Shown one piece after another: positions 3,227 through 9,112 of a stretch of 64,000 nucleotides of DNA. The translations under genes and the position numbers were made by a program. Numbering within the stretch: position 1 is the first letter of the stretch; each line of letters opens with the position of its first letter. Source of the DNA: a virus; IMG/VR virus record IMGVR_UViG_3300046513_000134, positions 1 to 64,000 of that record. One strand, written 5' to 3'. The notes beneath the pieces were generated by a model, which was given only the letters and a program-made list of their open reading frames with translations, ran no database searches and was not told the DNA's origin.

Positions 3227-4396
3227 TTAGCCCTTTTTCCAAAGAAACTGGCGGAGGTCATAGAGTTCGTGGACGTCCGCCATTACATCCCACGTCAGTT
3301 TGCTATAGGTCTCTTCCGTGAGACCAGCAATCTCTGATCGCGCCATCGTATAGGCGATTTCCTGTTTGACAATGAGCTTATTCACACCTTCGTCGGCTAT
3401 CCCCAAGTCTGGTGACACCATAGATGCATCCTTGAAGAAGGTAATCGCCCCGAGGGCCTTCTGGATCTTGCCGTTGTCGATCCCGTAGGGCTTGAACAGT
3501 TCCTGCATCTTGTCGGTCTTGGCCCAGCGCAGCAGCGCCGAGCGGCCAATCGACGTGTGCTGGTCGAGGGCGCAGTTCGGGACCGTCGTGTAGACATCCT
3601 CGAACTGGTTGATCATGCGGGTTTCCAGCGGCTCAGTCTGCGGTGGGGTTAGCGGTATCATGGTGTAGCCCGCGCCGAGGCACATCTGGGCGGTGATGAT
3701 CTGGCCGAAATGGATGTCGTCGTTCTGCCGTTCAAAGACGATCGCCGCTGCCAGCCCCATCGCCTTGGTCTCGAAGCTGTCCTTGAGGATGCGGATCACC
3801 GTCTTCAGCAGTTCGACGTTGCCGTGCCGGCACTTCTTGCGCAGGGTCCGCAGCGCGGCGAACTGGTAGTGGGGGGCAGCATGCGTCAGCATGTCGGTCA
3901 GCACCTTGTCCGGGTTCTCGACAGAAGTCGCGTCCATCTTGAGGACATCGACGTAGACGTTCAACTGGCAGCCGAAGCGGTTCTTCGGGGAGCGGGCCAG
4001 CCGGGCGATCAGCCCCCGGGCCAGTGTCAGCTCGTTGATCTGGATCTGCTGGCGGAAGGTCTTCAGGCACATCATCAGCGCCAGAGCGGTCATCTCCAGC
4101 ACCGGAAAGCCGATATCCTCCCCGGCGACGAGGGCGAGGCAGTCGAAGGCCTTCTTGTCGTCCTCCATGTACATCCGCTGGAAGTGGCTCCACGCCAAGG
4201 CGGGCAGTCCACGGCGCATGCACTTCTGGAAGGAGGAGCGGTGGATCTCCCAGTCGAACGGGCCGTCCGCGATGTTCTCAGCCCCCGACAGTTTCATGTT
4301 GAAGGCAGAAGACCATGCATGGGCCTCGGCTATCCAGTTCTGGATGATCAGCCGCGATGAGCTGATTTCAGTGGCGGCGTTAAACATGTCGGTCAT
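3227..4396 (-). CDS. RarA/MgsA C-terminal-domain-like protein without ATPase domain
   Basis: A 389-aa mostly helical protein. Residues about 50-110 (HRSSFQKCMRRGLPALAWSH... LALVAGEDIGFPVLEM) resemble the post-AAA+ tetramerisation region of bacterial RarA/MgsA, where a 'KsmRgsd.dAAlywlaRml... l..iASEDIG' pattern occurs. No Walker A or B motif is visible, so if the relationship is real this is the helical half alone. The start overlaps the stop of the RapZ-like gene as ATGA. A role in replication-fork handling would be inference only. Confidence 0.6.
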   Translation of the reverse strand: MTDMFNAATEISSSRLIIQNWIAEAHAWSSAFNMKLSGAENIADGPFDWEIHRSSFQKCMRRGLPALAWSHFQRMYMEDDKKAFDCLALVAGEDIGFPVLEMTALALMMCLKTFRQQIQINELTLARGLIARLARSPKNRFGCQLNVYVDVLKMDATSVENPDKVLTDMLTHAAPHYQFAALRTLRKKCRHGNVELLKTVIRILKDSFETKAMGLAAAIVFERQNDDIHFGQIITAQMCLGAGYTMIPLTPPQTEPLETRMINQFEDVYTTVPNCALDQHTSIGRSALLRWAKTDKMQELFKPYGIDNGKIQKALGAITFFKDASMVSPDLGIADEGVNKLIVKQEIAYTMARSEIAGLTEETYSKLTWDVMADVHELYDLRQFLWKKG

Positions 4397-8603: not shown

Positions 8604-8648
8604 GAAAAGCAAGCGGGGGCCACCGGACTAGCCTGCCGGGGACCCCCT
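8604..8648 (-). terminator. Hairpin after the tRNA region
   Basis: GGGGG(8643-8647 arm)...CCCCC(8615-8619 arm) with an inner CCGG/CCGG pairing, followed on the minus strand by GCTTGCTTTTC. It begins directly after the 3' end of the tRNA at 8649. On the plus strand it also ends in TTTT, so it could act in both directions. Confidence 0.55.
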
Positions 8649-8719
8649 TTTGATAAACGGGAGTTGAACCCGTTCCGATCGATCTCAAATCGATTGCTCC
8701 ACCGTAGAGCTTTTATCGA
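8649..8719 (-). tRNA. tRNA, anticodon read as UGA (class I shape)
   Basis: A 71-nt cloverleaf can be drawn: acceptor TCGATAA/TTATCAA with one C-A mismatch, D-arm GCTC..GAGC, anticodon stem ATCGA/TCGAT with loop TTTGAGA, T-arm ACGGG-TTCAACT-CCCGT, discriminator A. CCA is not encoded. A UGA anticodon would read Ser UCA, yet the variable loop is only four bases, unlike the long arm of normal tRNA-Ser. Identity is therefore uncertain; the T-arm is convincing. Confidence 0.55.
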
Positions 8720-8763
8720 GCACGTCCGTCTTTCGGCCTGTCCCGCCCCCGCGAGTTTGAAGG

Positions 8764-8866
8764 GACCCACGCTCTACCACTGAGCTAACCCCCATCAGTC
8801 CAAACGTAAGGTGTTTGGCTGGGGGTGCTGGGATCGAACCAGCGCGCAAGGCTTAAGGTTTTGGAG
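8764..8866 (-). tRNA. tRNA halves in permuted order (3' half precedes 5' half)
   Basis: On the minus strand a 3' half comes first: anticodon-loop-like CTCCAAA (8866-8860), T-arm GCTGG-TTCGATC-CCAGC (8843-8827), acceptor ACCCCCA (8826-8820), G73 and an encoded CCA (8818-8816). After a 21-nt spacer follows a 5' half: TGGGGGT (8794-8788), TA, D-arm GCTC-AGTGGTA-GAGC (8785-8771) and TGGGT (8769-8765). The two acceptor strands pair perfectly over 7 bp. The CCA anticodon plus G73 would fit tRNA-Trp. The joined anticodon stem is weak (4 bp) and the variable region is long (11 nt), so the exact joint is uncertain. Confidence 0.5.
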
Positions 8867-9112
8867 GCGACTATCCTATTCGACGTCTGAGGTTGTTAAT
8901 CTTGCAGGGCAAAACAGCAAAGTTAACACCTTAGTTCATGACACCTGCGGGTTCAGTGTCCCGCTTCGTAAGTTTAAATTTGGCCCTGTGGGAGGGTGCG
9001 GAGGGAGGCCCTGATGGGTCTCACCTCAATTCGAGATCGGGGAGGCTGGCCAGCCTCTGGCGTTTCTTGCCCAGAACGCCCCGCGTTGCCGCGACCCAAT
9101 GGCGGTGTTCTA
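8867..9112 (-). other. Untranslated stretch upstream of the tRNA halves
   Basis: No gene is visible. It holds a GGCGTT..AACGCC hairpin (9060-9081) and the 16-bp perfect palindrome GAGGCTGGCCAGCCTC directly beside it, both downstream of the DUF7873-like gene. They may end its transcript, though no T-run follows. No 5' tRNA half complementary to ACCCCCA was found here. Confidence 0.4.

Follow-up and report, generated by a model that had tools for sequence, protein, structure and literature searches.

A permuted tRNA-like RNA module conserved downstream of DUF7873 genes in phages and bacteria

The window analysed here is a 64,000-nucleotide stretch of viral DNA (positions 1 to 64,000 of IMG/VR record IMGVR_UViG_3300046513_000134). 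Around position 8,800 it holds two halves of a tRNA-like sequence with the 3' half placed ahead of the 5' half. A sequence-only reading had taken this for a circularly permuted tRNA gene, or a permuted intron-exon arrangement, either being very unusual in a phage. The question raised by the locus is whether the halves are spliced into a tRNA, stand together by chance, or belong to another kind of RNA. According to our analysis, the module is probably the head of a structured Y-RNA-like tRNA-mimic RNA of the YrlA type, with the protein DUF7873 as its probable partner. The RNA family with this head is conserved and apparently so far undescribed.

All positions are those of the window, and the module is read on the minus strand throughout, 8870 to 8743. 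In this order it holds TCGCCTCC (8863-8870), which forms the 5' side of a lower helix, the 3' strand of a stem resembling the anticodon stem (8848-8852, tRNA positions 39-43), the T-arm GCTGG-TTCGATC-CCAGC (8827-8843), and a segment at 8816-8826 formed by the acceptor 3' strand ACCCCCA (8826-8820), G73 (8819) and an encoded CCA (8818-8816). A 21-nt spacer (8795-8815) lies within the acceptor stem and contains part of a CCAAAC/GTTTGG hairpin (8818-8813 with 8805-8800), then ACTGA. After it come the acceptor 5' strand TGGGGGT (8788-8794), the dinucleotide TA, the D-arm GCTC-AGTGGTA-GAGC (8771-8785) and the 5' strand of the anticodon-side stem (8765-8769, positions 27-31), which pairs with 8848-8852. 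Next is GGGGGCGG (8743-8750), the partner of TCGCCTCC in the minimum-free-energy fold; in the relatives, helices of this zone score above mispartnered controls. The reversed order of the halves, the perfect acceptor complementarity (7/7, ACCCCCA with TGGGGGT) and the self-pairing of the spacer, all proposed in the sequence-only reading, are borne out. ARAGORN and Rfam at its curated cut-off report only the adjacent tRNA-Ser (8649-8719) and not the permuted module.

Computationally, we show a conserved and covarying fold, without an anticodon, that keeps a fixed place behind DUF7873 in phages and bacteria. The DUF7873 gene (PF25283; 9113-9859, minus strand, 248 aa) lies directly upstream of the RNA and scores 251.5 bits against a Pfam cut-off of 27 bits (E 1.3e-74). 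The family occurs in 73 phage records, in at least 286 IMG/VR stretches and in bacterial genomes of many phyla. Under a strict pairing rule, 66 of 82 distinct phage DUF7873 loci carry a same-strand module no further than 1 kb downstream, 13 of them with two modules, and the same rule finds nothing in the controls (0/78 upstream, 0/82 antisense, 0/82 shuffled). A covariance model built from 50 modules including that of the window, R1, recovers 14 of the 16 remaining phage loci at 46 bits or more, which gives 80 of 82 in total; the last two are a weak match (L069, 23.9 bits) and a locus without a module (L030). Among bacterial DUF7873 loci the module is found in 51 of 83 with the strict rule and in 67 of 83 with R1 at E<=0.01. 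The best R1 match adjoins DUF7873 in all twelve phage genomes searched whole. The window module (R1 span 8738-8874, minus strand) scores 75 bits, E 1.1e-20, with a model that includes it, and nothing else in this phage's 100.5-kb record matches at E<=1e-5. The spacing between gene and module is about 120 to 600 nt, and the module is often situated inside phage tRNA arrays. We found no shared neighbour genes across the bacterial loci examined.

Since the detection rule itself demands pairing of the T-arm, D-arm and acceptor, unbiased evidence comes from two tests: one of the anticodon-side stem, which was unused for detection, and one of the acceptor in which the T- and D-arms are the sole anchors. 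In the latter, the acceptor pairs at 7/7 in 50 of 66 relatives, compared with 0.9% when partners are taken from other loci. The anticodon-side stem forms at least four of five pairs in 62 of 75 distinct modules (about 16% when mispartnered) and covaries in the relatives. Below it a further helix tends to occur, with a score of at least 18 in 41% of modules against 9% of mispartnered controls. Over 50 aligned modules, 90.3% of the cells pair, compared with 61.3% after shuffling, and the covariation score is 0.771, against 0.206 for shuffled and at most 0.213 for slid alignments. U33 is present in just 26 of 62 modules, and there is no tRNA anticodon loop beyond the anticodon-side stem. In the modules of the relatives, acceptor sequences and N73 vary freely and there is no constant G-U pair.

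The best Rfam match at a lax threshold is YrlA (RF02553), which aligns end to end over 8740-8870 with 29.4 bits (E 2.8e-4); fragments of transfer-messenger RNA (tmRNA) rank lower. This is below the YrlA gathering cut-off of 69 bits, a weak criterion since the Ro-linked phage RNAs miss it as well (39.6-50 bits). The module shares with YrlA and other bacterial Y RNAs, which act with Ro60/Rsr, the T-arm, the closed acceptor hairpin, the D-arm and the anticodon-side stem in the same permuted order, as well as a long basal stem and frequently more than one copy per locus. According to a published comparison, the head of a bacterial Y RNA (6CU1) superposes on tRNA via circular permutation (PMC11472068). 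Our module differs from YrlA in its linkage to DUF7873 rather than Ro, in the sub-threshold score, in the N73-CCA encoded by the phage modules, and in the normal-order tRNA-like element and terminal hairpin that often follow. In the Ro phages Olaya, CcrColossus and Kradal, YrlA-like modules adjoin Ro (RF02553 39.6-50 bits, R1 up to 68) and DUF7873 is absent; RHph_TM30 (L004) has both Ro/TROVE and DUF7873 genes and three modules. The same kind of head thus accompanies either protein. In a fourth Ro phage, the crAss-like cr112_1, DUF7873 is absent too, and no module is clearly present. In RHph_TM30, two additional permuted modules stand just upstream of the Ro/TROVE gene (16592-16873), so that both kinds coexist.

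How far do these results leave room for other explanations? The sequence-only reading was right that the arrangement is not chance, since the order of the halves is real and conserved over great distances; adjacent normal tRNA pairs, the form that a chance juxtaposition in a tRNA array would take, reach about 38 bits with R1 against 75 here. It is hardly credible that the module is a true tRNA-Trp gene in circularly permuted form, or a permuted intron-exon gene, spliced into a working tRNA, although the half order, the perfect acceptor and the encoded CCA would fit. Known circularly permuted tRNA genes depend on a bulge-helix-bulge (BHB) splice motif and had been described from algae and one archaeon (PMC3978253). 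Like those of algae and Thermofilum, our module has its 3' half ahead of its 5' half and a complementary acceptor; unlike them, it has no anticodon loop to restore and a helix at the would-be splice site. The supposed Trp anticodon loop CTCCAAA mostly falls within TCGCCTCC, the strand that pairs with GGGGGCGG, would require an 11-nt variable region, and is not conserved; the 81% identical relative RHph_TM16 has CCCCCAAACC in its place. The suggested group I halves, and group II halves likewise, are rejected, as Rfam gives no intron match for the stretch even when the threshold is lax. The permuted layout stands and the tRNA gene does not: the relatives have no anticodon and no consistent U33, the anticodon-side stem runs on into a long helix with no joinable loop, and no intron family is found. 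A classical YrlA acting with a Ro60 protein of the host is very improbable. It would account for the match to the YrlA model, and in Cuauhnahuacvirus TM30 the RNAs linked to Ro reach 65 and 48 bits with the covariance model. Against it, the linkage is to DUF7873, the score is below the YrlA cut-off, and no TROVE (Ro60) gene is present in this phage, in TM16, in Y1_11 or in 13 further DUF7873 phages; among the DUF7873 phages tested, Ro occurs only in Cuauhnahuacvirus (TM30, Y65). A TROVE-based scan of viral contigs found nothing.

An RNA in two pieces is a stronger rival, though still unlikely: a cut within the spacer of the acceptor, with RNase P acting at 8794 and the 3' side processed to CCA, would leave two paired pieces with a free and perhaps charged CCA end, as in two-piece tmRNA. 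In 82 of 99 phage modules the acceptor is followed by N-CCA, which was unused for detection, and it is present in the modules of the window and of TM16 while the adjacent normal-order element lacks an encoded CCA. Many spacers are short and A/T-rich with TAT at the end, the bacterial locus L145 has a spacer insertion of about 190 nt, and there are weak partial tmRNA matches. However, CCA is found in only 14 of 73 bacterial modules, where a 6-8-nt loop often caps the acceptor, and the free variation of acceptor and N73 with no constant G-U pair also weighs against this rival. Two-piece (permuted) tmRNA (RF04321/RF01850) likewise has the acceptor 3' strand and CCA ahead of the acceptor 5' strand with a spacer between, but our module has a true D-arm and an anticodon-side stem. 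Only weak and partial matches to tmRNA models were obtained (18.7 bits for 61 nt of beta_tmRNA, 14.8 bits for part of a permuted tmRNA), and tmRNA itself was rejected. No tag-coding part was identified in the module, no search for a tag reading frame having been made. Several points weigh against the Y-RNA-like interpretation itself. One is that the RNA could act in cis within the DUF7873 mRNA, for instance as a tRNA-like signal at its 3' end for processing, stability or feedback by DUF7873. It is always on the same strand and directly downstream; the spacing of about 120 to 600 nt, the occurrence of several separate modules, the module-associated terminal hairpin and the presence of similar modules as separate YrlA-like RNAs in Ro-bearing phages suggest an independent RNA, and we consider the cis element improbable. 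In addition, Foldseek, NCBIfam and defence models reveal no recognisable fold or RNA-binding family for DUF7873. In 16 bacterial loci, mostly of Cytophagales, no module was found beside DUF7873. Folded as a single sequence, the window module does not exceed shuffled sequences in stability (z -0.8).

The protein gives few further hints. The AlphaFold2 model of DUF7873 has a pLDDT of 94, and Foldseek finds no match at E<=0.001 among PDB and viral models. A further structural comparison gave 3kdq at Z 9.2 and rmsd 6.7 A, itself a protein of unknown function. Defence-system and NCBIfam models returned nothing informative, and a literature search found no paper on DUF7873, though the main Y RNA papers (PMC4201824, PMC10870794) might mention such loci.

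The outer parts of the proposed RNA are supported less strongly than the head. Upstream of the module a hairpin is formed by TGTTAACTTTGC and GCAAGATTAACA (8894-8928, minus strand), with TTTTGCCC in its loop; according to the motif scan, many relatives have the loop motif TTATYGCYC at a similar distance. Downstream lies a normal-order tRNA-like element annotated as tRNA-Ser(TGA) by ARAGORN/Rfam (8649-8719, minus strand), which is 71 nt long without the long variable arm. ARAGORN finds such an element 40-80 nt past the D-arm in 42 of 118 loci, the relatives' counterparts standing at the same distance. Its anticodon switches between near relatives (TGT in L083 and TAA in L085, CTG in L127 and ATG in L149, TGA in the window and TGT in RHph_TM16), and the bodies are near-identical despite this in the first two pairs. 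In L138, L147 and L152 the element has a Leu-like body with a long variable arm, yet a Phe (GAA) anticodon. It is followed by a terminal hairpin, GGGGGTCCCCGGCAGGCTAGTCCGGTGGCCCCC with a T-rich tail (8607-8647, minus strand, z -3.1); over 41 loci the hairpin after the normal-order element has a mean z of -3.9, and 36 of the 41 are below -2.

Some individual loci deserve mention. In several inspected bacterial loci without a module, the next gene follows immediately after DUF7873, and five Cytophagales-type loci (L128, L131, L144, L157, L161) have DUF7873 without a recognisable RNA; there the protein may act with a different partner, or with none. A 209-kb phage record (G002) has a 62-bit R1 match (159383-159507) about 30 kb from the DUF7873-linked one. 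The spacer insertion of L145 (3714-4460) includes an inverted repeat, and the stem is still complementary. The match from the bacterial and archaeal collection nearest to the phage query is a contig binned as Lokiarchaeota (L113), which bears the DUF7873 pair and may be viral or wrongly binned. In Klebsiella phage FBKp24 (L021), an annotated 'tRNA-Sup-TTA' (4018-4097) overlaps the permuted module and seems to be that module misannotated.

The reading that we prefer, a Y-RNA-type head accompanied by DUF7873, would work as follows. The RNA would be transcribed with or near DUF7873, and its tRNA-like fold would join the remaining RNA via the anticodon-side stem. Tethered there, the T-arm and acceptor 3' strand would necessarily precede the acceptor 5' strand and D-arm; the permutation would be the finished state of the mimic, and no splicing or rejoining of halves would be needed. 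From the linkage of gene and module, we infer that DUF7873 may bind the long stem beneath the head, as Ro60 does with Y RNAs; in those RNAs, according to a review, the basal stem tethers Rsr and the tRNA-like part binds PNPase (PMC8394870). The tRNA-like head and the second, anticodon-bearing element might then engage tRNA-recognising enzymes. We favour such a particle because of the analogy, the anticodon exchange seen in the second element and the frequent location in tRNA arrays, and this is the least certain step. For the tRNA-like domain of YrlA, a role as competitive inhibitor of an anticodon nuclease has been proposed (PMC7790460), and the authors of a jumbo-phage study group TROVE proteins with RNA repair (PMC7824862). 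By analogy, the likeliest use in a phage would be to tie up or divert enzymes that cleave or process tRNA while the phage infects its host, though this particular use is a tentative and rather doubtful suggestion.

Quite possibly DUF7873 and an RNA of about 300 nt, with two tRNA-like heads, one offering an acceptor end and the other an exchangeable anticodon, form a new class of ribonucleoprotein separate from Ro/Y RNA, a two-gene unit that has spread between phages and bacteria and would handle tRNA or tRNA-targeting enzymes. Annotation tools are silent at these loci or label parts of them as odd tRNAs (Ser, suppressor), and such annotations therefore need correcting. The finding provides a candidate RNA partner for an uncharacterised protein family of phages, Actinobacteria, Bacteroidota, Myxococcota, Planctomycetes and cyanobacteria, and it extends Y-RNA-like tRNA mimics beyond the neighbourhoods of Ro60. 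If DUF7873 binds the RNA, the two would represent a second, Ro-independent family of tRNA-mimic particles.
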